Program-made: the position numbers and the translations under genes
The notes under the pieces: model-generated
What the model saw: the letters and a program-made list of their open reading frames with translations, nothing else
Told to the model about the DNA's origin: nothing
Database searches by the model: none
From: Gammaproteobacteria bacterium
GTDB lineage: Bacteria > Pseudomonadota > Gammaproteobacteria > SZUA-152
NCBI GenBank assembly: GCA_021648485.1
Contig: JAKISS010000011.1
Location: forward strand, 1-61,712
Length of the DNA: 61,712 bases
Reading direction: 5' to 3'
Shown here: piece by piece, positions 8,955 to 26,026 of the stretch
Numbering within the stretch: the first letter of the stretch is position 1
Layout: each line of letters begins with the position of its first letter

Positions 8955-10862
<1,908 letters not shown>

Positions 10863-10921
10863 TCACATCAAATAAACATCAATCAAAAAAACGACGGGGA
10901 TGCAGAGCAAAACGACGAGGC

Positions 10922-11046
10922 GCATGACTTGCTTCCCTACGCCGGTACAAACCGGATCAGGTTCAAAGGGTTAATCTCAGTTTTGTGCTGATAACAATTG
11001 CAATTTGCAAACTGCAATTTGCAAGCTGCACAAAACACCCCTAGCT
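10922..11046 (-). promoter_or_regulatory. TPP riboswitch (THI box) upstream of thiC
   Basis: On the minus strand the core elements appear in order: GGGGTG, CTGAGATTAACCC, TTTGAACCTGATC and CGTAGGGAAGCAAG. The P3 arm is enlarged: GTTTTGTGC pairs with GCACAAAAC (9 bp) and encloses about 39 nt containing two copies of TTGCAAATTGCA. TPP binding would lower expression of the thiC operon; the mechanism (terminator or ribosome-site masking) is not clear from the sequence. Confidence 0.95.
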
Positions 11047-11287
11047 CAGAAGGTCACAGTATACCGGCATTTGACACTCATCGCCCAGCAGAAGTGCCAG
11101 CAAACTGATAATTGAGTTGCGCCCCCTGAATACGGCAAAAATTAATTCAGGTGATACAACCACTTGCTTGGCATTGACCAAACAATAGCATTAGAATGGC
11201 CTCGTCAAAAACTGTGGATTTCATACACTGAAAAACCAGTTTAAAATTTACGGATCAAATTCATAAACAATACGGAGTAAGAAAAGT

Positions 11288-12676
11288 ATGCTAAACCGTT
11301 ATGGCTTAACCACAATCGTGCTAGGCACTGTACTGACTATCAACACAGCAACCCATGCAGGAGAAAACGAAGCTAATGAAGGACGGTGGTATATCAGTCC
11401 ATCAATCAACTATATTTTCGCTGACGATGATCGTGCCGCAGATAACGACATTGGCCTGCAACTCGGCTTGGGCAAAGAGGTCTCAAAAAGCTGGAATATT
11501 GAATTAAATCTCTTGTCCGACCAACTTGACTTTGAAACAGGCTCAGGCAAATTCAAACAATATGGCCTGAGTGTAGATGCCTTGTATTTCCCTGATCGTA
11601 GCAGCCGTATTGCACCTTATGGCCTGCTTGGCCTGGGCGCTTTGCGCACCAAAGTACCGGGAAACCGCAGCACTGATCCTATTGCTGAAATTGGTGTCGG
11701 CATCATGAGTCATCTGGATGACACTGATATGGCACTGCGCGCCGAAATTCGTTATCGCTATAACGATGACGATAGCAGCATCCCCACGGAAGATAACTTC
11801 GGTGACTGGATAGTGGGCCTCGGGCTAGCCATTCCTTTCGGTGGCAGCACCACTCCAGCACCCGTCGTCGCCATTGACGATGATAAAGATGGCATCGACA
11901 ATGATACAGACCGTTGTGCCAATACGGTTCCGGGAGCCACCGTTGATGCCCTTGGCTGTGAACTGGACAACGATAAAGACGGCGTTAAAAACAGCGCCGA
12001 CAGCTGCCCCGATACTGTACAAGGCACCATCGTCGATGCTCGCGGCTGCAAACAGAACATGGACAGTGACAACGATGGTATCAAAAACAGCGCTGACCGT
12101 TGTCCCAATACCGTGCAAGGCAGCAAAGTTGACGCACAAGGTTGTGAATTAGACAGTGACAACGATGGCGTCAAAAACAGCGCCGACAGCTGCCCCGATA
12201 CGGTTCCGAATGCCGGAGTAGATGCTCAGGGTTGCGAGCGGGATGATGACAATGACGGCATTAAAAACAGTGCCGACAACTGTCCTGATACTGCGCAGAA
12301 CGCCAAAACCGATAACCAAGGCTGCGAACTGAAAGAGATCATCACTCTTAAAGGCGTCACCTTTGCCAACAACTCAGCAGTGTTGACTGGAAACTCCGTA
12401 GAAGTGCTGGATGAAGCCGCTGCCACCCTGCGTCGCAATGCAGACCTCAACATTGAAGTTGCCGGTTATACGGACAATAGAGGTTCAGCCACTTACAACG
12501 TCCGTCTCTCACAAAAACGATCCGAGACTGTTCGCGACTATCTGGTTACGCAAGGCGTTTCAGCCGACATGTTAAGTGCCAAAGGTTACGGCCCGGAAAA
12601 CCCGCTTGCCGATAATGCCACTGCGGACGGTCGTGCAGCCAACCGGCGCGTCGAGTTGCGCATCCTGAAACACTAA
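11288..12676 (+). CDS. OmpA-family outer-membrane protein with thrombospondin type-3 repeats
   Basis: 462 residues. A signal peptide (cleaved near THA-GE, about 24) precedes an eight-strand OmpA-type beta barrel (about 30-190). Five calcium-binding TSP3-type repeats follow (about 195-345), each with DxDxDGxxNxxDxCPxT and a conserved Cys pair, like OprF. The C-terminal OmpA domain (about 350-462) has the peptidoglycan-binding NIEVAGYTDNRGSATYN and GRAANRRVEL. It anchors the outer membrane to the cell wall. Monocistronic, with a stem-loop after it. Confidence 0.95.
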   Translation: MLNRYGLTTIVLGTVLTINTATHAGENEANEGRWYISPSINYIFADDDRAADNDIGLQLGLGKEVSKSWNIELNLLSDQLDFETGSGKFKQYGLSVDALYFPDRSSRIAPYGLLGLGALRTKVPGNRSTDPIAEIGVGIMSHLDDTDMALRAEIRYRYNDDDSSIPTEDNFGDWIVGLGLAIPFGGSTTPAPVVAIDDDKDGIDNDTDRCANTVPGATVDALGCELDNDKDGVKNSADSCPDTVQGTIVDARGCKQNMDSDNDGIKNSADRCPNTVQGSKVDAQGCELDSDNDGVKNSADSCPDTVPNAGVDAQGCERDDDNDGIKNSADNCPDTAQNAKTDNQGCELKEIITLKGVTFANNSAVLTGNSVEVLDEAAATLRRNADLNIEVAGYTDNRGSATYNVRLSQKRSETVRDYLVTQGVSADMLSAKGYGPENPLADNATADGRAANRRVELRILKH

Positions 12677-12686
12677 AGCAGCAACC

Positions 12687-12732
12687 TGTCCATGCAGCAC
12701 ATACGATACAACCGTCATGTGCTACATGGACA
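12687..12732. terminator. Stem-loop between ompA and mscS
   Basis: TGTCCATG (12687-12694) pairs with CATGGACA (12725-12732), and inside it GCACAT pairs with ATGTGC. There is no proper U-run after it, so it could be a processing or stability element rather than a terminator. Confidence 0.5.
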
Positions 12733-12762
12733 CATTAAAAAATCAAAAAACAGGAGAGTAGT

Positions 12763-13584
12763 ATGGACATCCTAAATGGTGTAGACAGCAACATGATCAA
12801 TGAATATGTCATCCCCTGGTCAATCAATCTTATTTCCGCCCTGATTGTTTTCATCATCGGGCGCTGGGTTGCAAAACTGATTGTCAAAGGCATGAAGCGT
12901 GTACTTGAAAAGGCCGGGGTAGAAGCAACGCTGAGCAACTTCCTGGGCAACATCGTTTATGCCGCCTTATTAATTGCAGTCATTATCGCCGCACTTAATC
13001 AACTGGGCGTAGACACCACATCGGTGCTTGCCGTATTCGCCACCGCCGGTCTGGCCATTGGCCTGGCGCTAAAAGACTCACTCGGCAACTTTGCAGCAGG
13101 GGTTATGTTAATCCTCTTCAAACCCTTCAAAAACGGTGATTTTGTTGAGGCAGGCGGTTCAGCCGGTGTCATCGAAAGCATCACGGTGTTCAACACCGTA
13201 ATGCGCACAGGTGATAACCGCGAAGTCATCATACCCAATGGGCAGATTTATGCGGGCACGATTATTAACGTGAGCGCGCGTGACACCCGTCGTGTCGATC
13301 TGGTCTTCGGCATTGGTTATGACGACAACATCAAAGAGGCCAAAAAAATCATTGAGCAGGTATTGGCCGCCGACGAGCGTATTCTCAAAGACCCGGCACC
13401 GCTGATCGCCGTTGGTGAACTGGCAGACAGCAGCGTCAACCTCAATGTCCGTCCCTGGGTAAAAAGTGGTGACTACTGGGGTGTTTACTTCAGTCTGCTG
13501 GAAAATGTCAAAGAAGCCTTCGATGCCAAAGGCATCAGCATTCCTTACCCGCAAATGGATGTACATAATCCCAAAGCCGCCTGA
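12763..13584 (+). CDS. mscS: Small-conductance mechanosensitive channel MscS
   Basis: 273 residues, close to E. coli MscS in size and layout: three N-terminal transmembrane helices (about 15-110), pore helix with alternating Gly/Ala (VFATAGLAIGLALKDSLGNF, about 90-110), the beta domain (FKNGDFVEAGGSAGVIESI) and the alpha-beta C-terminal domain ending IPYPQMDVH. It releases solutes on hypo-osmotic shock. Good ribosome site (CAGGAGAG) before ATG 12763. A longer paralogue lies at 4826-5908. Confidence 0.96.
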   Translation: MDILNGVDSNMINEYVIPWSINLISALIVFIIGRWVAKLIVKGMKRVLEKAGVEATLSNFLGNIVYAALLIAVIIAALNQLGVDTTSVLAVFATAGLAIGLALKDSLGNFAAGVMLILFKPFKNGDFVEAGGSAGVIESITVFNTVMRTGDNREVIIPNGQIYAGTIINVSARDTRRVDLVFGIGYDDNIKEAKKIIEQVLAADERILKDPAPLIAVGELADSSVNLNVRPWVKSGDYWGVYFSLLENVKEAFDAKGISIPYPQMDVHNPKAA

Positions 13585-13603
13585 CTTCAGGCTCATGTAA
13601 AAC

Positions 13604-13638
13604 AAAGCCAACCCGTTGCATGCGGGTTGGCTTTTTTT
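13604..13638 (+). terminator. Intrinsic terminator after mscS
   Basis: GCCAACCCG (13607-13615) pairs with CGGGTTGGC (13623-13631), flanked by AAA and a seven-T run. Strong and potentially bidirectional; it marks the left edge of the defence island. Confidence 0.93.
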
Positions 13639-13913
13639 GGGCGGAAATAAAGGGTATTCATTAAATAAAGCCGGGAATACAACACATTATATCCAGTGCC
13701 TGTTCCACATTTTTCACCTGGCATAGATATTAAAATACGACAAAAGAAAGACCCTTTTGTTTGGAGCTAGTCAACTTTCCTGTTTCTCGAAAGCGGAGTA
13801 TTTCTACAGCGAAATACAAAATCTGCACCTTTGTCAAATACTACTACCCAACGATACTTTACAGAAAAAAACAAGACGATAAAAAAAGCGTTGTCACATT
13901 ATGGCTTTGATAG

Positions 13914-14079
13914 ATATGCCCGTAGCGTTTGAGATTCAGGCGTTCAGTGTGCGTCATATTCATTTCATAGCAAGGCGAAATAACGAGTAATAGCCGATCT
14001 ATTGTGAGGAATTTCAACGCAGCCATGGAATGAAGAGGGCGTGCAATGAGCGTCTGAATTTCAATCGCTACGGGTATAT
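13914..14079. repeat. Long palindromic repeat, copy A
   Basis: A 166-bp imperfect palindrome from ATATGCCCGTAG to CTACGGGTATAT. Its core (GCAAGGCG, AGTAATAGC, ATTGTGAGG, CAACGCAGCC) matches the core of the repeat at 52999-53114. It lies directly after the stop of the CapP-like gene and fills most of the 13639-14089 gap; nothing else supportable was seen there. Confidence 0.75.
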
Positions 14080-14089
14080 CTAGAAAAAA

Positions 14090-14929
14090 TCAGCATTCTT
14101 TTTCTTCTAGTTCATCTTCAAAATAAAGCATTGTGGCAACATATCCATTTTGCATGACATAGACTTCTTCAATAATATCTTCAGGTGTAAGGAAGTATTT
14201 GTCATCTCCAATCCAGGTGCTACTTAACGCGCTGCCTGAATAGGTTGAATTTTCGGGACTATTACTCGCTTTTCTGATGGAGCTGCCTGATGGTACAGGA
14301 TCATTCTTCCCTGGGGTTATCCAGAAAGGGAACTCGGTACTCTTACAGCTGTAGCGAACAATATTGTTGAGACTGAATACAACAGCAACTGGCTCGTCAT
14401 GTAGCCTACAGTATCTTTGAGCACCGGCCTCGAAACTGACATCAAAATCATTCGCCTGTGCAATTAAACAATCCATGGATGGCGAATTGTTATAACCTTT
14501 GTAACTTCTGAAATGTTTCTGCGGCATTAATATTTCAGCAGAAAACTGATTGGCTTCAAGCTCAATCTTTTGCTTGCTTGATAAGTTCTTACTTTCTTTA
14601 GTTATCAGGTCATCTATTCCGCATTGCATCTTATGCCCATGCCTGGGAAGCATGTAATGGCCTAACTCATGTCCAAGAGAGAATCTTTGTCGATGATGCC
14701 TTGAGTTTGAATTAATAAGAATGGCACCTTTTGTTTTCTCTTTATCCGCTAGTAGAGCGCCCTCAAAACCATCTAACGTTGTGTACTCAATTTTGTTGAT
14801 GCCAACAGCAGCAGCAATATCTTCTAATGGTACGGGGATAGGTAAATCAGGTATTTGTGATGTAATTTCATCAACAATTTGCTTAGGTTTTACCAGGTCG
14901 GCAAACTCAATAAGGTCAAGTTCAATCAT
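14090..14929 (-). CDS. capP: ImmA/IrrE (COG2856) metallopeptidase, CapP-like
   Basis: 279 residues. The zinc peptidase motif HELGH is at 87-91, with the third ligand in the IELEANQFSAEILMP segment (E125). A cysteine at 103 could act as an inhibitory switch (inference). Overlapping by 8 bp with the HTH gene upstream and divergent from a CBASS operon, it matches the CapP of CapH/CapP pairs, in which the protease, activated by single-stranded DNA after damage, cuts the CapH repressor. It could alternatively be a prophage-type ImmA; no phage genes are near. AT-rich compared with flanking housekeeping genes. Confidence 0.87.
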   Translation of the reverse strand: MIELDLIEFADLVKPKQIVDEITSQIPDLPIPVPLEDIAAAVGINKIEYTTLDGFEGALLADKEKTKGAILINSNSRHHRQRFSLGHELGHYMLPRHGHKMQCGIDDLITKESKNLSSKQKIELEANQFSAEILMPQKHFRSYKGYNNSPSMDCLIAQANDFDVSFEAGAQRYCRLHDEPVAVVFSLNNIVRYSCKSTEFPFWITPGKNDPVPSGSSIRKASNSPENSTYSGSALSSTWIGDDKYFLTPEDIIEEVYVMQNGYVATMLYFEDELEEKEC

Positions 14930-15248
14930 CTTTATCCGTGTTTCTGATGTGCACTGCTAATTCAAGCATTTTTTGAAGGTCGTTGACGGAGAACCCCTTT
15001 TCTTCGGCCTCTCTGGCAAATGCCAGATATTCCGCATCTTCCTCTTTTGCTCCTGTACCCGCTAGGTAATCAACGGTGACACCAAAATAGCTCGCCAATT
15101 TGCTTATCAGTTCGAGTGACGGGTTTTTGGTTGTTCCTCTCTCAAGCTCCCAAATGTGTGGTTTTGATGCCTCTACAGCATCTGCAACTGCTTGTAATGA
15201 AACGCCTTTATTTAGGCGAAGCTCTTTTAAACGGGCTCCAAGTGACAT
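14922..15248 (-). CDS. capH: XRE-family HTH repressor, CapH-like
   Basis: 108 residues. Residues about 5-65 form a classic helix-turn-helix (LGARLKELRLNKGVSLQAVADAV, then IWELERGTTKNPSLELISKLA). The C-terminal part is a short helical region (EEDAEYLAFAREAEEKGFSV) that could dimerise and be the cleavage site. Good ribosome site TGAGG before ATG 15248. Its start faces the CBASS genes across a shared intergenic region, as expected of a repressor of that operon. The functional assignment is inferred from context. Confidence 0.87.
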   Translation of the reverse strand: MSLGARLKELRLNKGVSLQAVADAVEASKPHIWELERGTTKNPSLELISKLASYFGVTVDYLAGTGAKEEDAEYLAFAREAEEKGFSVNDLQKMLELAVHIRNTDKDD

Positions 15249-15281
15249 TTTTTACCTCACATATTATCGGGTGCATATGAC

Positions 15282-15456
15282 CCTAAATTAATCAGTTAAA
15301 CCTACTGCGAACACCTAATGCACAGAATCTAAAGTGTTTTTCAGAACATGTTGAACTCACCGTATGGGTGATACGCTTTCGTCCAAAATAACCTGAAAAA
15401 CGCTTTATCTTCCGCACCTTAGTCGCTCTCGCTACGGTTTAACTGATTAATTTAGG
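15282..15456 (-). mobile_element. MITE copy 3 (complete, inverted)
   Basis: 175 bp, identical to copy 2 when reverse complemented. Flanks are ATGAC (15277-15281) and ATGAT (15457-15461), a 5-bp target duplication with one change. It sits between capH and the CBASS operon, lengthening their shared promoter region by 175 bp, and could alter their joint regulation. Confidence 0.92.
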
Positions 15457-15488
15457 ATGATACATCTAACAGCCTAGTACGGATAGAC

Positions 15489-15518
15489 TTGACGTCAATG
15501 CCATGTATGGACTAATCT
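15489..15518 (+). promoter_or_regulatory. Candidate promoter and operator of the CBASS operon
   Basis: TTGACG (15489-15494), 18-bp spacer, TAATCT (15513-15518) make a plausible sigma-70 promoter. The -35 box is part of a perfect palindrome TTGACGTCAA (15489-15498), a possible repressor-binding site for the adjacent HTH protein. This is pattern-based only. Confidence 0.4.
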
Positions 15519-15559
15519 AACGCCCGTGTACCTATGTAATTATACTAAAGGTGAATTTT

Positions 15560-15784
15560 ATGAGTTCAAATAATCAGCATGTTGTTCCACATAAGAGTGG
15601 TTGGGCAGTAAAGGGTGAGGGTAACCAAAAGGCTTCATCTGTCCACAGTACGCAAAAATCTGCGATTGATACCGCAAGATCAATTTCAAAAAACCAGGGG
15701 TCTGAATTATTTATTCACGGGAAAAACGGCCAAATTCGCGCCAGAGATAGTCATGGCAAAGACCCATATCCCCCAAAAGGATGA
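15560..15784 (+). CDS. DUF2188 small protein at the head of the CBASS operon
   Basis: 74 residues from ATG 15560 (a GTG at 15551 is in frame, but AAAGGTG suits 15560). It carries the DUF2188 pattern: HVVPHKSGWAVKGEGNQKA, then TQKSAIDTAR and ELFIHGKNGQIRARDSHGKD. The function of DUF2188 is unknown. It ends 6 bp before the patatin start on the same strand, so co-transcription is very likely. Whether it is a CBASS component or a passenger cannot be told. I do not know of DUF2188 as an established CBASS part. Confidence 0.88.
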   Translation: MSSNNQHVVPHKSGWAVKGEGNQKASSVHSTQKSAIDTARSISKNQGSELFIHGKNGQIRARDSHGKDPYPPKG

Positions 15785-15790
15785 TTTCAA

Positions 15791-16882
15791 TTGACGGTTA
15801 ATAACAGACCAGAAAAGCATGGTAGTAATAAATACCGTGTTTTAAGCATTGATGGTGGTGGTATGCGCGGCCTATACAGCTGCGCATACCTACAGGGTAT
15901 GACGGACACTGGAAAGGCTAAATATGATGCTGAACTGGATGACTTTGGCAACAAGTTTGACCTGATTGTCGGTACGAGCACAGGCGCAATACTAGGAGCG
16001 GGGTTAGCGGCAGGCATCCCCTTATCTGGTATATGTAATTTATACACAGAATGTGGGCCAAAGATTTTCCCAAAAAAACTGCCTGACCAACCTTCAAAAT
16101 TAGTTTTTCATCCACGTTCAAAATTGAATAAGAGCGGTGATGCTGCACTAAGAAAGGCACTGGACAGTCAATTTAATGATTTAACACTCGGTCAGTTACA
16201 TCAAAATAGACAGATTGGTCTTGTCATTACGTCTGTGAATTGTGCAACACATCGGGCGTATGTGTTCAAAACACCTCATGATAAAACCTCCAATCATCGT
16301 GACGATGATATAACGCTGGTTGATGCCTGCCTTGCCAGCTCTGCTGCACCAATTTATCGATCAATTGCTGTTATCAGCCAGGAAGACGCACTCTTAGATA
16401 ATTCTATGTTTATCGATGGGGGGCTGTGGGCAAATAACCCCGTTTTGGTTGCTCTTATCGAAGCGCTTCGTAATACAGATGACGATCAAGAAATAGAAAT
16501 ATTTTGCCTGGGTACATCACCCGCACCTACTGGAAGTGTGCTTGACCAAGATAGCCCGCATTGGGGGTTACTTAAATGGCAGTTTGGCGGTCGGGCAATC
16601 GAATATGCAATGGACTCACAATTTCAAGTTTATGACGATATGGCCGGGATGCTTCTGAGTCATATTCACAGGGACGTCAGCATTACAAGATTTCCACAAC
16701 CTGTTCCATCAGCTGATCAGGCACCTCTACTCGCACTAGATGATGCATCACAAAAGGCTATGACCCTGCTCAAACAGTTAGCTGCAAGAGCTGTTGATGA
16801 AACGAATCAATTGATAAATACGGGGAGTGAAAAGGGGAAGCGGATAGCCGCTTTATTTGGTGATGAGAGTGAAGGTGATTGA
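15791..16882 (+). CDS. capV: Patatin-like phospholipase, CapV-type CBASS effector
   Basis: 363 residues with all patatin motifs: the oxyanion loop DGGGMRG (21-27), nucleophile elbow GTSTG with Ser63, and DGG with Asp209, giving the Ser-Asp dyad. CapV proteins are activated by a cyclic nucleotide from the partner CD-NTase and degrade the inner membrane, killing the infected cell. Start is TTG 15791, six bases after the DUF2188 stop; AAGGATG lies upstream. The CD-NTase gene follows after 11 bp. No signal peptide, as expected for a cytosolic effector. Confidence 0.93.
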   Translation: MTVNNRPEKHGSNKYRVLSIDGGGMRGLYSCAYLQGMTDTGKAKYDAELDDFGNKFDLIVGTSTGAILGAGLAAGIPLSGICNLYTECGPKIFPKKLPDQPSKLVFHPRSKLNKSGDAALRKALDSQFNDLTLGQLHQNRQIGLVITSVNCATHRAYVFKTPHDKTSNHRDDDITLVDACLASSAAPIYRSIAVISQEDALLDNSMFIDGGLWANNPVLVALIEALRNTDDDQEIEIFCLGTSPAPTGSVLDQDSPHWGLLKWQFGGRAIEYAMDSQFQVYDDMAGMLLSHIHRDVSITRFPQPVPSADQAPLLALDDASQKAMTLLKQLAARAVDETNQLINTGSEKGKRIAALFGDESEGD

Positions 16883-16893
16883 GGTAATAAGCC

Positions 16894-18408
16894 ATGTTCG
16901 ATTGTAGTAAGGAAATAATCAGATTTTTTAATAATGAGGTTGCGCTAAGCAAGCCTGAACAAAATGAAATGAGATCAAGGCGTAATGCTAATCGAAATCG
17001 GTTAGAAAAGGGTCTTGAAAAAAATGAAAAACCATTGCCTGAAGAGCATGTGCCTCAAGGTTCGTATGCTATGCGTACAATGGTTAAGGATGAAAACAAT
17101 GATTATGACATTGATGACGGTGTCGTATTCAATCAAGACAATTTAGTTGGCGCGCAAGGCGCAGAGATGTCAGCTCTTAGTGTGCGCAAAATGGTGCGAG
17201 ACGCACTGGATGATGGCTCATTTAGTAAGTCGCCAGAGGTTCGTACAAACTGTGTGCGTGTATATTATACAGCAGGTTACCACGTTGATGTGCCTGCATA
17301 TCGAAGATTAGATGATGATACCTTGGAGTTAGCAAGTGCGGACTGGAAAGGCAGCAGTCCTACAGAAGTAACTGAGTGGTATAACAATGCAGTAATAGAA
17401 AAAAGCCCTGAGGGGAATAATGGAAAGCAAATGCGCCGCGTTACCAGACTGCTGAAGTTTTACAAGCAAAGTCGTGGTAGCTGGAAGCCGTTAATGCCGA
17501 GTGGTTTTGAAATTTCTGTATTGGTAGATGAATGTTACATCGCAGACTCCGAAAGAGAAGATGTATCTCTGTATGAAACAATGCTGGAAATTCAAGAGCG
17601 GCTGGAATGTGATCTTGAAGTTGAGCATCCCACACGCGATGAAATGCTAACTGATGGTGCAGATGATGCCAATACACGGCTGTTAAAAGAAAAGCTAACC
17701 GAAGCTGTTAATACTTTACAAGTATTGTTCAAATCTTCTTGTACCCGCCTTGATGCTCTGCGCGCCTGGAATTGTGTGTTCAAGCATGAATATTGGAAGG
17801 ATTTGATTGTAGAGGAGGAAGAGTCTGAAAAACAAAAACGCAAGGAAGAGAAAGCTGCGTTGCTTCGGGAAGGAAATGCAGGGTTAAAAATCGCCGCAGG
17901 CATAATTGGTATTGGCGCTGCTGTTGCAGTTGGTTCGGCAATAGCGAAATCTGTAAAAGAGACACGGTCATATGGCAGCAAAAAAAGTAAACGTTATGGT
18001 GGGCCTTGGTACAGCAGTTATCGCGAGTTAATGATATTCGAGCGGAGTGCCAGGGAGCAGTTTCCTTCGTTAAAGGCATCAAATAAACGCTCGGGGCGTA
18101 GAATGTGGAGGGAGTATAATTTGACGATAGATGTGCCTGAATATGAATCACGTCAAGTTGTTATTCAGATGAAGCCTGGTTGCGGCAGTGCACCGAAGGT
18201 TGCAACTGATGGCCCTACAAGCTCGCCACATCGTTATGACGAAGATGGCGGTGAATTGTGTATGTGGTACCCCAAGGACCCTAGAAAGAACAGATGGATA
18301 TTTACAGATGGCCTATTGCTACTACTTGTTTTGATACAGTTCCACCTGTTTCGTGAAGCATGGTGGCGCGAAACGGGGGAGTGGCTTGGCCCTGAAGTAG
18401 CACATTAA
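16894..18408 (+). CDS. CD-NTase (cGAS/DncV-like) apparently fused to an E2-like domain
   Basis: 504 residues. The N-terminal nucleotidyltransferase has QGSYAMRT (55-62), the metal-binding DYDIDDG (70-76, Asp72 and Asp74) and a third acidic position in HVDVP (Asp132), so it should be active in making a nucleotide messenger for the adjacent patatin. The nucleotidyltransferase region runs to about 305. Then come a charged linker (307-325), a glycine/alanine-rich hydrophobic stretch (329-352) and a C-terminal domain (about 370-504) with the layout of CBASS E2 (UBC-fold) proteins: a helix, beta strands, PHRY (445-448), LCMWYP with candidate catalytic Cys456, and TGEWLGPEVAH at the end. In described E2-containing CBASS the E2 is a separate gene; here no stop or frameshift separates the parts. 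E2 assignment is by motif memory, not search. Confidence 0.9.
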   Translation: MFDCSKEIIRFFNNEVALSKPEQNEMRSRRNANRNRLEKGLEKNEKPLPEEHVPQGSYAMRTMVKDENNDYDIDDGVVFNQDNLVGAQGAEMSALSVRKMVRDALDDGSFSKSPEVRTNCVRVYYTAGYHVDVPAYRRLDDDTLELASADWKGSSPTEVTEWYNNAVIEKSPEGNNGKQMRRVTRLLKFYKQSRGSWKPLMPSGFEISVLVDECYIADSEREDVSLYETMLEIQERLECDLEVEHPTRDEMLTDGADDANTRLLKEKLTEAVNTLQVLFKSSCTRLDALRAWNCVFKHEYWKDLIVEEEESEKQKRKEEKAALLREGNAGLKIAAGIIGIGAAVAVGSAIAKSVKETRSYGSKKSKRYGGPWYSSYRELMIFERSAREQFPSLKASNKRSGRRMWREYNLTIDVPEYESRQVVIQMKPGCGSAPKVATDGPTSSPHRYDEDGGELCMWYPKDPRKNRWIFTDGLLLLLVLIQFHLFREAWWRETGEWLGPEVAH

Positions 18409-18501
18409 TACGATAGACTGACAAGTTGTCGCAGAATCGCTTTGGGATGAGGTGTAGATTGGTAGTCTGAAAAACTACATTTACTTGATTTCACCAAAGA
18501 T

Positions 18502-18547
18502 CAGACATATTGTCACCATATATCAATAAGTGGTTACAATATGTCTG
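18502..18547. promoter_or_regulatory. Palindromic operator overlapping the abiEi start
   Basis: CAGACATATTGTCACC (18502-18517) is the inverted copy of GGTTACAATATGTCTG (18532-18547) with one mismatch. The right arm includes the abiEi ATG at 18541. AbiEi antitoxins are known to bind inverted repeats and repress their own operon, so this is the likely autoregulatory site. Occupancy could also block ribosome access only indirectly, through transcription. Confidence 0.75.
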
Positions 18548-19149
18548 TTTCTGAAGGCAAAGCATATCCGGCTGAAATATTCCGCCAGCACGGTGGCCTG
18601 CTCCGTATGAGCGAAGCTATCAAATACGGCATATCCCGCTATGCCCTCTATAAAATGCGAGATAATGGCGCGCTGGAGCAGGTTTCCAGAGGTGTTTATC
18701 GTCTGGTTGACCTGCCGCCTATGAGTACCCCTGATCTGGTCACAGTGAGCCTACGCTTCCCCAAAGCGGTGATCTGCCTGATCTCAGCTCTTTCGTTCCA
18801 TGAGATGACGACCCAGATACCACATGAGGTCTCGGTAGCCGTGCCTCGGGGTACCAGAATGCCTTCCCTCGACATTCCCCCTGTGCATGCCTACAAATTC
18901 TCACCTGAGGCGTTTAAAGCTGGGATTGAGAAGTACCAGATAGATGGTGCCATTGTGCAGGTTTATAGTGCTGAAAAAACACTGGCCGATTGCTTTAAGT
19001 ATCGAAATAAACTGGGCATGGATGTGGTGCTCGAAGCGCTGAAGATCTATAGAAGTCAGAAGAGGTTTAATCTGGATAAGCTGCTTAAATATGCGCGGGT
19101 ATGCCGAGTTGAAGAAGTTATAAGACCCTATTTGGAGGCTAGCCTGTGA
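18541..19149 (+). CDS. abiEi: AbiEi-type antitoxin, type IV toxin-antitoxin
   Basis: 202 residues. An N-terminal winged-helix domain (GGLLRMSEAIKYGISRYALYKM, ending GVYRLVDLPP, about 15-65) precedes the antitoxin domain (VICLISALSFHEM and VPRGTRMPSL). AbiEi counteracts the AbiEii nucleotidyltransferase toxin and represses the operon. The pair overlaps by 4 bp. A palindromic operator covers its start. The start lies 130 bp after the CD-NTase-E2 stop, so the two defence modules are probably separate transcripts. Confidence 0.92.
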   Translation: MSVSEGKAYPAEIFRQHGGLLRMSEAIKYGISRYALYKMRDNGALEQVSRGVYRLVDLPPMSTPDLVTVSLRFPKAVICLISALSFHEMTTQIPHEVSVAVPRGTRMPSLDIPPVHAYKFSPEAFKAGIEKYQIDGAIVQVYSAEKTLADCFKYRNKLGMDVVLEALKIYRSQKRFNLDKLLKYARVCRVEEVIRPYLEASL

Positions 19150-20054
19150 GCAAGGGAAAACGCAATATTGCTGCATCAGTCCGGCAAAAACTTAAAAATC
19201 AAGCGGCTCAAGATAAGCGACCTTTTGCGGAACTGCTTCAGTATTATGCGATGGAGCGTTTCCTATACCGCTTGACTCAATCCAGCCATGCTGGCCGGTT
19301 TGTTCTTAAAGGCGCGTTGATGCTTAGGGTTTGGCAATCCCCCCAATTTCGCCCGACTATGGACATTGATATGTTGGGTAGAACCAGCAATGACATAGAC
19401 GATATTTGTGCCCAGGTTGCCGCTATTATTTCTGTCAAAGCCGATGATGGTCTCATTTTTGATTCAGCGACTATTCGTGGTGAAAGAATAAAAGAGGATG
19501 CAGATTATGAGGGTGTTCGTGTGCGTTTTATTGGAACACTAGATAATGCCCGAGTGAATATGCAGATTGATGTTAGCTTTGGAGACATCATTCACCCTGA
19601 GCCAATTGAGGCTGAACTGCCTGGCATACTGGACTCACCTGTACCTAGGCTGCTCTGTTACAGCTGTGAGAGCGCGATTGCGGAAAAATTCGAAGCCATG
19701 ATAAAGCTGGAAACGCTTAATAGTCGTATGAAGGATTTTTACGACATCTGGCTGCTATCCCGACAATTTGAGTTTGATGGCAGCGAATTAGCTGAGGCAA
19801 TACGGCTGACACTTGAGAATCGTGGCACTGAAATACCCGATATCATTACCGCTTTCACGGATGAATTCGTTATGGCCAAGGATAAACAATGGGCAGCATT
19901 CTGTAAGCGGCTGAACCTAGAGCATGTGCCAGCCAGTTTTGTTGAAGTTGTGGCCGGTGTTGAGGGCTTCTTACAACCGATTGCATCAGCATTGTCTGTG
20001 GATGAGCAATTTTCCCAGAAATGGTCGGTTTCGGATTATTGGGCAAGTCCCTAA
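19146..20054 (+). CDS. abiEii: AbiEii-type nucleotidyltransferase toxin
   Basis: 302 residues. The nucleotidyltransferase motif is visible: FVLKGALMLRVW (about 55-66) followed by RPTMDIDMLGR, with the DxD metal ligands. The DUF1814 core continues with YDIWLLSRQFEFDG, typical of AbiEii. The family stops growth or aborts phage infection by modifying nucleic acid, in some homologues tRNA. GTG start overlaps the antitoxin stop by 4 bp. It converges on a small minus-strand gene with two bases between the stops. Confidence 0.93.
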   Translation: MSKGKRNIAASVRQKLKNQAAQDKRPFAELLQYYAMERFLYRLTQSSHAGRFVLKGALMLRVWQSPQFRPTMDIDMLGRTSNDIDDICAQVAAIISVKADDGLIFDSATIRGERIKEDADYEGVRVRFIGTLDNARVNMQIDVSFGDIIHPEPIEAELPGILDSPVPRLLCYSCESAIAEKFEAMIKLETLNSRMKDFYDIWLLSRQFEFDGSELAEAIRLTLENRGTEIPDIITAFTDEFVMAKDKQWAAFCKRLNLEHVPASFVEVVAGVEGFLQPIASALSVDEQFSQKWSVSDYWASP

Positions 20055-20055
20055 C

Positions 20056-20301
20056 TCAGCCAAACAACTCACCCCGCTCAACCAGATAACGTAATAGCTG
20101 ACTTTCTTGTATCCCAAGTTCTCGGCAAAGGGCGGACTCTGATAATTTTCCGTCCCGGTACAGAACAATTGGATGATCGTTTGGCAAGTCAGGCGCATCC
20201 AATTTAGGCGGCGGCGGAGAATCAATGCCCAATGGCTGCCTACTTGGTATTAATAGCAGGCCATTCTCAAACATGAATTTGGTGATTTCGTCTTTATTCA
20301 T
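20056..20301 (-). CDS. Small hypothetical protein, possibly DNA-binding
   Basis: 81 residues. The C-terminal third (KLSESALCRELGIQESQLLRYL) reads like a short helix-turn-helix, similar in feel to UPF0175 proteins, but I cannot assign a family. Proline-rich middle (DSPPPPKLDAPDLP). No clear ribosome site. It lies at the right end of the defence island, convergent with abiEii. Confidence 0.5.
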   Translation of the reverse strand: MNKDEITKFMFENGLLLIPSRQPLGIDSPPPPKLDAPDLPNDHPIVLYRDGKLSESALCRELGIQESQLLRYLVERGELFG

Positions 20302-20616
20302 GGTTTTGAGTATATTCCATCAGGCAGTGAGCTCCCTAAACTACCTTAGGCGCTTTCTCCCAGTAAAATTGCTCCACCTTTGAGGGTTACTATAAAGCCC
20401 TTTGATGAAACAATAAATTCATATATAACAATATGTTAAAGGTAGTCCACCCTTCCTTTAAACGTCAGCGTAATTCCAACCATATAGGGTTGTATTTGAG
20501 AAAGAGTGAGAAATAGAACCCGAAGGGATTTATCCCCGGCAGAATTGACCCGACCGGAGAGCCTGCGTTAACGTACCGCCCACCCGAAAAAAACGGAAAC
20601 CACAGAGTTCAACAAC
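20302..20616. other. Intergenic region at the right edge of the defence island
   Basis: No gene is supportable. The left part is AT-rich like the island; from about 20510 the composition returns to that of the xseB block. No tRNA or attachment repeat was recognised, so the boundary mechanism is unknown. The promoter of xseB-ispA-dxs presumably lies in the right half. Confidence 0.5.
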
Positions 20617-20853
20617 ATGGCTCAGAAAAAACAAAAAACACCCGATTTTGAAACAGCGCTGAAAGAACTTGAAATGCTGGTAGAGCGTATGGAAAATGGC
20701 GAATCTTCACTGGAGGATTCGTTGAAAGACTTCGAACGCGGCATCGAACTCACCCGCAGCTGCCAGACTGCACTGGCTGAGGCCGAACAAAAAGTAGAGA
20801 TTCTGCTGAAAAAAGACGGTGAACCAGAAGCGTTTGTCACCAGGACTGAATAA
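20617..20853 (+). CDS. xseB: Exodeoxyribonuclease VII small subunit
   Basis: 78 residues, the usual length. XseB is the helical small subunit that combines with XseA to degrade single-stranded DNA. The signature [26 protein letters not shown] is complete. It opens the conserved xseB-ispA-dxs operon; ispA follows after 70 bp. Confidence 0.97.
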
Positions 20854-20923
20854 TGCGCGCAAAAGCCTTCAACCAATGAAAACCCTGGCCTCACCCTTTT
20901 GCTCTTTAACGCTGAACTGATCC

Positions 20924-21820
20924 ATGTCACTCATCCCCCTGCTCGAAACTTGTCAGGCTCGCACAGAAAAGACGTTGCGGCACTGGCTACCCACAGCCAA
21001 TGTGAATCCTGCGTTACTGCATGCGGCCATGCGCTATTCCAGTCTCGACGGCGGTAAACGTATACGCCCTCTATTGGCGTACCTCACTGGACAAATGCTC
21101 GGCATAGCTCCCTCCGTATTGGATGGCCCGGCTTGCGCACTGGAACTGATTCATGTTTATTCGCTGATCCACGATGATCTGCCTGCCATGGATAATGACG
21201 CACTGCGCCGAGGCAAACCAACCTGTCACATCCGGTTCGACGAGGCCACCGCGATTCTCGCCGGTGATGCCCTGCAATCCCTGGCGTTTTACATTCTTGC
21301 CCACGATCCGGACATGGTGGATGACCCGGCTCTGCGCCTGAAAATGGTGGAAACTCTGGCTCTGGCCAGTGGTTCACGGGGTATGGCGGGCGGGCAGGCC
21401 ATGGATCTCGCTGCTGAAGGCTTGGAACAAAGCATGAACCTCGCCGAGCTGGAAAACATGCACATTCACAAAACCGGGGCGCTGATCCGCGCCAGCGTCA
21501 AGCTGGGCGCACTGAGCCAACCCGGCGTTGAGCCCACACAGCTGGAAAAACTCGACCACTTCGCCAAGTGCATGGGACTGGCCTTCCAGATCCGTGACGA
21601 TATCCTTGATGTGGAAGGTGACACGGTCACCCTGGGTAAACCTCAGGGATCTGACGAGGCCCGCCATAAAACCACCTATCCTGCCTTGCTGGGCATGACC
21701 GAGGCCAAACAACGCGCAGACGAGTTACACCAGAAAGCCGTTGACAGCTTGTCGTATTGGGGCAAAGCCGCCCAACCACTGCGCGATATTGCCAGGTACA
21801 TCATTCACCGGCAAAGCTGA
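20924..21820 (+). CDS. ispA: Farnesyl diphosphate synthase
   Basis: 298 residues. Head-to-tail prenyl transferase making farnesyl diphosphate from dimethylallyl and isopentenyl diphosphates. Both aspartate-rich metal motifs are present: DDLPAMDND (first, about 85-93) and DDILD (about 226-230), with GGKRIRPLL near the N-terminus. It feeds ubiquinone and cell-wall lipid carrier synthesis. Second gene of xseB-ispA-dxs. Confidence 0.97.
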   Translation: MSLIPLLETCQARTEKTLRHWLPTANVNPALLHAAMRYSSLDGGKRIRPLLAYLTGQMLGIAPSVLDGPACALELIHVYSLIHDDLPAMDNDALRRGKPTCHIRFDEATAILAGDALQSLAFYILAHDPDMVDDPALRLKMVETLALASGSRGMAGGQAMDLAAEGLEQSMNLAELENMHIHKTGALIRASVKLGALSQPGVEPTQLEKLDHFAKCMGLAFQIRDDILDVEGDTVTLGKPQGSDEARHKTTYPALLGMTEAKQRADELHQKAVDSLSYWGKAAQPLRDIARYIIHRQS

Positions 21821-21929
21821 TATAATCATTCCCCTTTTTAACCCTCGTAGGGTGATGCTCACCATTTAGCACGCTTGGCACCTGATGCGGTGGGCGGTGC
21901 CCAGCCTACGAAAAATTGCAGCATAGCCC

Positions 21930-23837
21930 ATGCCCAAAACACGCGCTTTTCCGTTACTGGAAAGCATCAACAGCCCCGACGATGTCCGATCACTGGACAC
22001 CGGCCAGCTCAAAGAGCTGGTGGACGAGTTGCGTGCCTTCCTGATTCAGACCGTCGGTCAAACCGGAGGGCATCTCTCTTCCGGCCTGGGCACGGTGGAA
22101 CTCACTGTGGCTCTGCATTATGTGTTTAACACGCCACAGGACAAACTTGTGTGGGATGTCGGCCATCAAAGTTACCCGCACAAAATTCTTACCGGCCGAC
22201 GCGAACAAATGCACAGTTTGCGCCAGCAGGGCGGCATTGCCGGTTTTCCCAAACGTAGCGAAAGCCCTTATGACACCTTTGGAGTGGGCCATTCCAGCAC
22301 CTCCATCAGTGCGGCACTGGGCATGGCCATTGCCGCACAACAAACAGATGATGAAAATGAAGCCGGTAAAAAAGTCGTTGCCATCATCGGAGATGGTGCG
22401 ATGACAGCGGGCATGGCCTTTGAGGCATTGAATCACGCCGGTTCACTGGACGCTAATCTGCTGGTAATTCTCAACGACAACGACATGTCCATTTCTCCCA
22501 ACGTGGGTGGTCTGTCGAATTATCTGGCACGTATCCTCTCCGGCAAGCTTTATCTCGCCGCCCGCGAAGGCTCAAAAAAGGTATTGAGCCAAATTCCCAA
22601 TATGTGGGAACTGGCCCAGCGCGTGGAAGAACATGCCAAAGGTATGGTGATCCCCGGCACCTTGTTTGAGGAACTGGGTTTCAACTACATCGGCCCTATT
22701 GATGGCCATGACATGGATTCCCTGATCAAGACTCTGGGCAACCTGAGCACGCTGAAAGGCCCGCAATTTCTGCACGTCGTCACCAAAAAAGGCAAGGGTT
22801 TTGAGCCTGCGGAAGAAGACCCCTGCGCCTACCACGGCGTGGGCAGTTACGACCCGGATACCGGTGAAGCCCTTCCTGCACGCAATAAAAAAACCAGCCT
22901 CACCTACACGCAGGTGTTTGGCGACTGGCTGTGTGATCAGGCCGCACAGGATAAAAAACTCATGGGCATCACCCCTGCCATGCGCGAAGGCTCCGGCATG
23001 GTGACTTTTTCCGAACAATTTCCGAGTCAATACCTGGATGTCGGCATTGCCGAACAGCACGCAGTGACGCTGGCTGCGGGCATGGCCTGCAATGGCCTCA
23101 AGCCAGTGGTGGCGATCTACTCCACCTTCCTGCAACGTGCCTATGATCAACTGATCCACGACGTTGCCATCCAGAACCTGCCCGTCATGTTCGCCATCGA
23201 CCGTGCCGGACTGGTGGGTGCCGACGGGCCGACGCATGCCGGCAGCTTCGACCTCAGTTACCTGCGCTGCATACCCAACATGATAGTGATGGCTCCGGCG
23301 GACGAAGCTGAGTGTCGTCAGATGCTCAACACCGGTTACCAACACAACGGCCCTAGTGCCGTGCGGTACCCGCGCGGCTTCGGCCCCGGCACACAACCCG
23401 CGCAAGACTTTGAAACGCTGCCACTGGGCAAGGCTGAAGTACGACGCCGTGGTAGCCATGTTGCCATTCTCGCCTTCGGCAGCAGGGTGGCTCCAGCCAT
23501 CACAGCCGGTGAAACACTGGACGCCACGGTAGTCAACATGCGTTTTGTCAAACCGCTGGACGAAGACCTGATACTGGAAATGGCCGCACAACACTCGCTG
23601 ATCGTAACCGTGGAAGAAAACGCCGTAGCAGGTGGTGCAGGCAGTGGCATTAACGAATGTCTTGCTGCACACGGTGTCACCATAGCCATACACAATCTGG
23701 GGTTGCCGGATCATTTTGTCGAGCACGGTGAACACGGAACGTTGTTGAGCCAATGTGGTCTGGATGCCAGTGGCATCGAAAACACCATCAACAAACTACT
23801 GACGCAATCTGACACGCAAGCCCGTATTGCTAAATAA
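21930..23837 (+). CDS. dxs: 1-deoxy-D-xylulose-5-phosphate synthase
   Basis: 635 residues, full length. Thiamine-diphosphate enzyme joining pyruvate and glyceraldehyde-3-phosphate, the first step of the MEP isoprenoid route. The N-terminal cofactor motif [18 protein letters not shown], the central [15 protein letters not shown] (catalytic Glu), and a C-terminal transketolase-like domain are present. It follows ispA, 109 bp downstream. Confidence 0.98.
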
Positions 23838-23904
23838 CGCCCAATACCTTAGTATTTTAATCAACTTATAGCCTCTGCTATTTACCCACTGTTCCCATAC
23901 TCCC

Positions 23905-24285
23905 ATGCCAGCGAAGTACACCCTTAAAGTTGTTAGTGATTTTGCCTCCGCCCACACCCTGCGTGACTACCCTGGTGCCTGTTCACGCATGCACGGACAT
24001 AACTGGAAAGTCGAGGCTGAAGTCGAGGCCAGCCAGCTGAACAACGTGGGCATGGCCATTGATTTCAAAGCAATACGCCAGCAGGTGCGTGAATTGACCG
24101 ACCTGCTCGACCATCGTTATCTCAACGAAATCGAACCTTTTGACACCATCAACCCCACCGCCGAAAACATCGCTGCATTTATTTTCAGTGGTTTGTCAGA
24201 AACACTTAACAATGAGCATATCCGTGTCAAGGCCATCACCTTGTGGGAAACCGAGCGTGCCTGTGTGCGTTTTACCGATAATTAA
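23905..24285 (+). CDS. queD: 6-pyruvoyl-tetrahydropterin synthase/QueD family protein
   Basis: 126 residues. Zinc-binding His in SAHTL and in MHGHNW, with catalytic-type Cys in GACSRMHGHN and the LDHRYLN motif. Family members make 6-carboxy-tetrahydropterin for queuosine (QueD) or related pterins. It is followed 36 bp later by folE2, whose product (dihydroneopterin triphosphate) is the QueD substrate, so the two act in sequence. Whether it serves queuosine or another pterin is not decided here. Confidence 0.9.
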   Translation: MPAKYTLKVVSDFASAHTLRDYPGACSRMHGHNWKVEAEVEASQLNNVGMAIDFKAIRQQVRELTDLLDHRYLNEIEPFDTINPTAENIAAFIFSGLSETLNNEHIRVKAITLWETERACVRFTDN

Positions 24286-24321
24286 CACGCTGAAAACTCA
24301 AACCGCAAAAGAGGAAAGCTC

Positions 24322-25113
24322 GTGACTGATTCCACCATTGCCGACGTACAAAATTCGGAAGATACCCGCCACCTGCCTATCAACAAGGTTGGTATCAAGG
24401 ATATCCGTCACCCGGTACGCATTCGTGACCGCTCTGGCGGAGAGCAACACACCATCGCCAACTTCAATATGTATGTGAACCTGCCGCATAATTTCAAGGG
24501 TACACATATGTCGCGTTTTGTGGAAATACTCAACCAGCACGAACGCGAGATTTCAGTCGAGTCTTTCGAAGACATGCTGGCAGAAATGACCGAACGCCTG
24601 GAAGCCGAGTCCGGTCACATCGAAATGAGCTTCCCCTACTTCGTCAACAAAACGGCACCGGTATCCGGCGTGCAAAGCCTGCTGGATTACGATGTGACTT
24701 TTTTGGGCTCCAGCAGTGGCAGTCTGCATGAGACGACACTCAAAGTTGTGGTACCCGTCACCAGTCTGTGCCCCTGCTCAAAGAAAATTTCTGATCGCGG
24801 TGCGCACAATCAACGTTCACACGTTACAGTTACCATCAAAACTCACGAATTTGTCTGGATTGAAGACATCATTGATGCTGTGGAATCCATTGCCTCCTGT
24901 GAATTGTACGGTCTGTTAAAACGCCCGGACGAAAAATACGTCACCGAACGTGCCTACGACAACCCAAAATTTGTGGAAGACATGGTGCGTGATATTGCAG
25001 CACACATGAACCAGGACTCACGCATTACCGCTTACGTCGTGGAATCAGAAAACTTCGAATCCATTCATAATCATTCGGCCTATGCACTGATCGAAAAAAA
25101 CATGACAACATAA
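24322..25113 (+). CDS. folE2: GTP cyclohydrolase FolE2 (type IB)
   Basis: 263 residues. Converts GTP to dihydroneopterin triphosphate, entering folate and queuosine routes. Recognised by [29 protein letters not shown] (the metal-binding Cys/His region) and [12 protein letters not shown] near the C-terminus. GTG start with GAGGAAAG before it. In many bacteria FolE2 substitutes for zinc-dependent FolE under zinc limitation; no Zur site was recognised here. Confidence 0.95.
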
Positions 25114-25340
25114 TTTGAGTCTTGTCATGTGCTATATCCGTGGCGATTGAAATTTAAGCTTTATTGCACGCCATACACACTCCCAACGAGATATACAACA
25201 TCTCATCCTGCTCCTTTACCCTAACTCCCGTGGGAATCCATTGTTTTGACTTTGCGCTTAATTTTATATGCGCTGTTGAATAATATGGAAGACATGCCCC
25301 AAACCTAACATGATCAAAACACAGCATGGGAGCAAGAGTG

Positions 25341-25940
25341 ATGAAAAGAAAGATATCTATTCAAGGAAAGGCATTGATATTAACGCTGGCTTTGTCGGCG
25401 ACAACCAGCGCAATCGCTGACAATGCTGAACAACGCACTCAGGCAGCAATGGAAGTGGCACAATCTTTCATGATCCAGCTGGGCAAGACCATGAAAAGCG
25501 CAATGCAGAAAGACGGCCCTGTTGCTGCCATCAATGTATGCGCAGAACAAGCGCCAAAGATGACAGCAGATATTTCCCGAAGCCAGGGTTGGAAAGTAAC
25601 CCGCGTCAGCACTCGCGTGCGTAACCCCATGCTTGGCATGCCCGATGTATGGGAACAAAAGGTACTGGCACAATTTCAGGCTCGCCTCGACCGGGGGGAG
25701 TCGCTAAAGACAATGAGTTTCTCCGAGATGGTGACCGAGCCCAATGGCCGTTATTTCCGTTTTGCCAAAGCCATTGGTGTCAAACCCCAATGTTTAACCT
25801 GCCATGGCAGTAAAAATGATATCCCCAGCGCAGTGAAACAAAAACTGCAACAGCAATACCCCTTCGATAAAGCAACAGATTATCGGGCAGGTGACCTACG
25901 AGGTGCTGTCAGCATAAAACAGCCCCTGCCCAGCATGTAG
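25341..25940 (+). CDS. Periplasmic c-type haem protein, DUF3365/Tll0287-like
   Basis: About 199 residues from ATG 25341 (GGGAG lies 9 nt upstream; an in-frame ATG at 25326 lacks one). Signal peptide ends near SAIADNAEQ. One haem site CLTCH (about residue 150) follows FAKAIGVKPQ. The domain matches DUF3365 haem sensor or electron-carrier proteins. It precedes the SQR gene on the same strand, though a hairpin and a MITE intervene, so a role with sulfide oxidation is only a suggestion. Confidence 0.88.
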   Translation: MKRKISIQGKALILTLALSATTSAIADNAEQRTQAAMEVAQSFMIQLGKTMKSAMQKDGPVAAINVCAEQAPKMTADISRSQGWKVTRVSTRVRNPMLGMPDVWEQKVLAQFQARLDRGESLKTMSFSEMVTEPNGRYFRFAKAIGVKPQCLTCHGSKNDIPSAVKQKLQQQYPFDKATDYRAGDLRGAVSIKQPLPSM

Positions 25941-25989
25941 CTAATATGAGAACGCCCAGTAAAGAATTGCTGGCTACGAACATCATCAC

Positions 25990-26026
25990 CACACTGACAC
26001 TCAAACGGATATTGATTGTCAGTGTG
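25990..26026 (+). terminator. Stem-loop after the haem protein gene
   Basis: Perfect 10-bp stem CACACTGACA (25990-25999) and TGTCAGTGTG (26017-26026). The T-run follows only after another 9 nt, so termination efficiency is doubtful. Confidence 0.5.

Follow-up and report, generated by a model that had tools for sequence, protein, structure and literature searches.

An open reading frame of 504 residues in a gammaproteobacterial genome (lineage SZUA-152, assembly GCA_021648485.1) joins a CD-NTase and an E2-like domain in one chain, and sequence comparison marks its cyclase as a hybrid, in which a DncV-like body of the kind found in patatin/Cap2 operons carries the C-terminal tail of another clade and is followed by that clade's E2. 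We put at about 70% the probability that the operon is by descent an E2-only (type II-short) CBASS with a hybrid cyclase, whose E2 acts on an Arg-Ser-Tyr-Gly site in the tail, possibly in cis as part of a self-cleaving precursor. The combination of body and tail is new; the single-chain form is also new if the run of A's at the join has been assembled correctly. All positions are those of the window, the stretch of 61,712 nucleotides of contig JAKISS010000011.1 that was analyzed.

The frame is open from ATG to TAA at 16894-18408 (plus strand), and the search of its own genome gave one match; it is a real, unusual gene. Its body, residues 1-310 (16894-17823, plus strand), is a DncV-like CD-NTase: PADLOC places the cyclase profile PDLC00783 over residues 1-321 (2.4e-127), and Pfam finds DncV-like_NTFase (8.5e-21) and SMODS (5.9e-08). 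The motif QGSYAM is present, and the catalytic residues Asp72, Asp74 and Asp132, all intact, are invariant in the five cyclases aligned. A reading made earlier from the letters of the sequence alone (the sequence-only reading) had named this motif and the three aspartates and had seen a CD-NTase and a CBASS E2 within one frame beside CapV; the PADLOC profiles and the alignment bear it out on both points.

The E2 (UBC-like) domain, residues 366-504, occupies positions 17989-18408 of the plus strand including the stop codon. PADLOC finds its E2 profile PDLC00867 over residues 370-504 (1.6e-31), and AlphaFold2, with an alignment of 37 sequences as input, models residues 360-504 (mean pLDDT 86.0, pTM 0.82) as a helix, four strands, a loop carrying Cys456 and a long helix, the order expected for a UBC fold. 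Cys456 (codon 18259-18261, plus strand), which had been picked out in LCMWYP as the candidate catalytic cysteine, is invariant in all 37 rows of the E2 alignment, and the PHRY motif and the GEWLG..H end, taken from the letters as E2 features, are indeed common to relatives. An E2-like protein with a conserved cysteine, as in type II-short systems, is present. The probable identity of the domain rests on PADLOC and the model; other sequence support is thin. The profile search of the C-terminal part that the sequence-only reading had proposed succeeded with PADLOC and gave nothing elsewhere: the window's E2 matches no Pfam family and no relevant NCBIfam model, and only one of the 37 members of the alignment touches Prok-E2_A of Pfam, at 0.038. 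The 37-row profile has no match among solved structures, and a four-sequence profile finds UBE2K only, insignificantly (E 0.72 to 1.3). Aligned by hhalign with the E2 domains of Cap2, the E2 profile gives a weak match (probability 1%, E 0.055), in which both cysteines share one column.

Directly upstream of the fused gene lies the adjoining cyclic-nucleotide effector expected of a CBASS, the patatin-like phospholipase CapV (15791-16882, plus strand, with a TTG start in the ORF list; PADLOC effector PDLC00758, 1.8e-95; NCBIfam CBASS_lipase, 206.8 bits at a cut-off of 200). Divergent from both genes are a CapH-like HTH regulator (14922-15248, minus strand; PADLOC capH PDLC04142, 3.2e-19) and a CapP-like peptidase of the M78 (ImmA/IrrE) type, a CBASS regulator (14090-14929, minus strand; PADLOC capP PDLC04141, 5e-57; Pfam Peptidase_M78, 3.4e-15). 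An AbiEi/AbiEii pair follows downstream; directly before AbiEi an inverted repeat of 22 nucleotides with a gap of two (18502-18547) is likely the operator of that pair.

Neither Cap2 nor Cap3 is found among the ORFs at 9000-26000, and a Cap2 protein searched against the whole genome gave only a weak match (27% identity over about 106 residues). The operon is therefore without E1 and JAB peptidase, as are type II-short systems, which have an E2 without E1 or isopeptidase, the cGAS/E2 pair of Serratia marcescens of Yan et al. (2024) being an example; as assembled, it differs from them in two features, namely that its E2 is not a separate gene and that its cyclase C-terminus, with the E2 behind it, would not be free. 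The marks of type II, a Cap2 E1-E2 beside the cyclase and a C-terminal Gly/Ala, are absent. With type II CBASS (CapV, DncV-like cyclase, Cap2 E1-E2, Cap3) the operon shares CapV and the kind of cyclase body, but it has neither Cap2 nor Cap3, and its tail is not of the GGGRF/Y-G/A kind.

The hybrid nature of the cyclase follows from where the relatives of its parts lie. With residues 1-365 as query, tblastn found cyclases that are 38-50% identical to the body at loci L007, L008, L009, L019 and L020; the E2 loci L014-L018 and L021-L061 gave none. Cap2 adjoins the cyclase in six of the seven body relatives whose surroundings were read (L007, L008, L009, L020, L142 and L143), the seventh, L019, being truncated and joined to another gene. 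The cyclases from E2 loci fall under a different profile, PDLC00777, in all four cases scanned. The tail, residues 311-362 (17824-17979, plus strand), is of the type that goes with stand-alone E2s: residues 311-364 match an HMM of the C-terminal tails of 38 E2-associated cyclases, scoring 27.0 bits with residues 296-370 and 22.7 bits with the full-length sequence. The highest-scoring of 200 shuffles reached 7.1 bits, and three Cap2-type cyclases (L009 left out) came out at about 0. The HMM was trained on tails picked by their motif, which makes motif counts on those 38 loci partly circular. The tail match stops at residue 364, leaving two to six residues to the start of the E2 match, and tail and E2 together look like one transplanted module; in base composition body, tail and E2 are not clearly separated.

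The tail also holds the hydrophobic stretch at residues 329-352, for which the sequence-only reading had suggested a membrane anchor. The stretch exists, and with a 19-residue Kyte-Doolittle maximum of 2.16 (residues 333-351) it exceeds all 38 tails of the relatives (0.03 to 1.91, mostly far below). The anchor itself has little in its favor, since the stretch sits in a low-complexity cyclase tail whose counterparts mostly have much lower values; the region is best supported as a cyclase tail.

How the relatives arrange cyclase and E2 was seen by searching 84,980 species genomes with the E2 alignment, which gave 41 loci, two of them broken remnants in the window's own family. Five of nine plasmid records with an E2 were added, making 46 loci; of the remaining four, two again come from a Streptomyces species already represented. 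A cyclase-body HMM recognized a cyclase in 42 of the 46 (not in the remnants L040 and L058, nor in L049 and L055), and in none of these 42 do cyclase and E2 share an ORF, so that the search for further CD-NTase-E2 fusions, also proposed as a check, came back empty. A stand-alone E2 gene beside the cyclase is, as far as these loci represent it, the rule for this E2 family. In 38 of the 42, the cyclase terminates in R[AS][YFW] with one to nine residues behind it, a count to be read with the fact that the HMM was built from the same 38 motif-chosen loci; in L035 and L061 the frame picked by the HMM is a fragment, and in L045 and L060 the tails differ. In 37 of the 38 motif-chosen loci the E2 lies in another frame than the cyclase, in one (L046) in the same frame after the stop, and in several of the nearest E2s the start codon, in the +1 frame, precedes the cyclase stop by 14-23 bases. 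The window's E2 belongs to the same family as those of the E2-only CBASS of Actinomycetota, Chloroflexota and others (L014-L018, L021-L057, L059-L061; 34-53% identical in the alignments made), and its cyclase has the same type of tail; unlike the window, these loci have cyclase bodies in which tblastn detects no similarity, and their E2 is separate in all 42 with a cyclase. One candidate for a second fusion, L019 from a Sphingobium plasmid, was rejected: its ORF of 694 residues (L019:3001-5085) joins a truncated DncV-like cyclase to an extension that reads by eye like a conjugation ATPase.

Compared with these loci, the join of the fused gene falls at the very site where the relatives have the cyclase stop next to, or overlapping, the E2 start. 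The Arg-Ser-Tyr-Gly of the tail motif, the putative processing and conjugation site, is kept at residues 358-361 (17965-17976), with the E2 following it instead of a stop. Counted from the frame of the fused ORF, the +1 frame has an ATG (17972-17974) where the E2 start would be expected and the -1 frame a TAA (17988-17990) where the cyclase stop would be expected; between them, inside codons 363-365, lies a run of seven A's (17980-17986; all on the plus strand). The two-gene layout is thus a single base of run length away. No in-frame start codon from which the E2 alone could be made occurs between residues 324 and 379.

Nine of 369 genomes of the class match some part of the protein, and the E2 profile has matches in two of the 369 class genomes, one of 398 phylum genomes and three of 24 family genomes; each of these counts includes the window's own genome. 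The closest E2s, at 51% identity or less, come from assemblies of Bacillota, Chloroflexota and Actinomycetota; in the E2 tree the window's E2 has its shortest paths to L027, L022 and L021, and no well-supported clade holds it. The whole protein has no close relative in viral contigs, and neither the 289 plasmid records nor the one phage record that matched cover 80% of it. Horizontal arrival of the module is likely. In two genomes of the family, broken E2 remnants stand beside the same AbiE genes (L040, G008:C82:1140-1450; L058, G016:C105:12257-12379); other genes replace the rest of the operon there, with the breakpoints of the replacement inside the E2 gene.

From these data we infer how the system may work. 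Phage infection would activate the cyclase, its cyclic nucleotide would activate CapV, and CapV would attack the membrane, while CapH and CapP may control expression. Without the help of an E1, the E2 would act through Cys456 on the tail at Arg-Ser-Tyr-Gly and attach the cyclase to a lysine; the motif, in which an aromatic residue precedes in most cases a Gly and then a few variable residues, agrees with such processing of the tail. The E2 of Serratia, in the work of Yan and colleagues, reportedly also processes the C-terminus of its cyclase and conjugates it to lysine without an E1. For that E2-only system a review table gives Y405 as the cGASylation residue and the prokaryotic E2 as the enzyme (Yan et al., 2024, as tabulated in PMC12135389), and the cyclase belongs to a different clade, CdnG (PMC12804361). 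The Serratia system resembles the one in the window in having an aromatic residue near the cyclase C-terminus as probable conjugation point and an E2 with one invariant cysteine, and differs in that the window's E2 is fused to the cyclase, the body is DncV-like and the effector a patatin. In Cap2 systems, a C-terminal Gly/Ala of the cyclase is joined to lysines (PMC11153139, PMC10097602).

By descent the fused gene would be two genes that read as one through the length of the A-run, and the fusion may be either a natural self-processing precursor or a one-base accident. The accident could have happened in the sequencing or assembly, the organism having two overlapping genes and an A-run one base longer than assembled. 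We consider this rather unlikely, though it is the rival to be taken most seriously. The join lies in a homopolymer, exactly where stop and start are expected, none of the 42 relatives is fused, and the source assembly is incomplete (86.28% complete, 102 contigs). Against an error speaks a frame-break control with the same-genus genome G016 (816 ORFs on 893,528 bases): the 73 ORFs that matched the 461,712 bases of the window's genome at 55% or more (743 did not) show no frame break over 22,067 aligned amino acids, and in the reverse direction 67 of 413 ORFs matched, none of them frame-broken, although these intact ORFs contain 33 A7/T7 and three A8/T8 runs. The control argues against a high rate of indels and cannot vouch for a single site. 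The join is known from one genome; similarity to the sister genomes begins downstream of the A-run, at 18006 (G008) and 18280 (G016), so that their remnants do not reach the join and neither reveals an earlier state of the run. The sequence-only reading had named a frameshift near residues 305-365 as what would undo the fusion; a join one base of run length away from two genes comes close to this condition, although the data do not show it to be an error. The hybrid would survive even an assembly slip, because body and tail share a frame upstream of the run.

If the tail is processed in this way, the E2 of the fused protein may be viewed as an unusually long version of the extension that follows the site in the relatives, and it could act in cis, because its N-terminus replaces the few disposable residues that follow the site there. 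We tentatively, and with clear reservation, extend the preferred reading to a self-splitting precursor: the E2, a C-terminal extension of its own substrate, would cleave the chain after Tyr360 (or Gly361) via Cys456 and in the same step take over the cyclase as a thioester for conjugation; the gene would be a natural cassette exchange, which would show tail and E2 to be a portable module working on a foreign body, and the A-run could toggle between one chain and two. Ubiquitin precursors are also made fused to other proteins. The analogy, for it is only that, lies in a conjugated protein made with a C-terminal extension; unlike there, the extension would here be the conjugating enzyme itself.

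That the system has been broken recently, the merger blocking conjugation and the operon decaying as in the sister genomes, appears improbable. In the two family members all that is left next to the AbiE genes is a broken piece of the E2, but the window shows no second disruption, with CapV, CapH, CapP and the two parts of the fusion intact apart from the merger. Still more doubtful is a fusion that selection has kept for good and whose tail is never cleaved, the E2 part serving the cyclase as the scaffold or internal regulator that the sequence-only reading had envisaged. It could account for the conserved residues of both halves being kept in one frame and for the missing internal start codon, but the survey of 42 loci yielded no second case, and the retention of both the Arg-Ser-Tyr-Gly site and Cys456 speaks against a purpose-built scaffold or regulator. 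Hardly probable, finally, is an A-run serving as a switch, by which slippage of polymerase or ribosome gives both the fused chain and the cyclase on its own, joined by a separate E2 if the slippage is in the RNA. The run does have a start codon before it in one alternative frame and a stop codon after it in the other, but seven A's are a modest and common slippery run (261 A/T runs of length 7 in 461,712 bases), and the relatives yielded no example of one.

If the hybrid is functional, the recognition target of the E2, a tail of about 50 residues ending in Arg-Ser-Tyr-Gly, is separated from the cyclase body, and grafts of the module onto other proteins would put the E2-only mechanism to a direct test. 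A fusion that is real and cleaved would show that the E2 can begin at a peptide bond within a chain and depends on neither an E1 nor a free cyclase end. A description of a cyclase-E2 fusion was not found in the literature covered, to which Yan et al. (2024) and Ledvina et al. (2023) do not belong.

Some further observations concern the surroundings of these genes. Between CapH and DUF2188/CapV lies an inverted repeat with arms of 27 nucleotides (15276-15302 and 15436-15462, 93% complementary). The DUF2188 ORF, of 74 residues (15560-15784, plus strand; 2.7e-26), stands just upstream of CapV; a second DUF2188 gene, on a Clavibacter plasmid (L016) and close to its E2-type CBASS, was the sole tblastn find among the loci searched. 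In two E2-only CBASS of actinobacterial plasmids (L015 and L017) a gene for an ImmA/IrrE-type peptidase, the type of CapP in the window, lies just upstream of the cyclase. In L035 (5905-6720), where the cyclase frame is broken in the assembly, the E2 frame continues without a stop into a hydrophobic protein, and this extension resembles the proteins found downstream of the E2 in L014, L015, L017 and L018.
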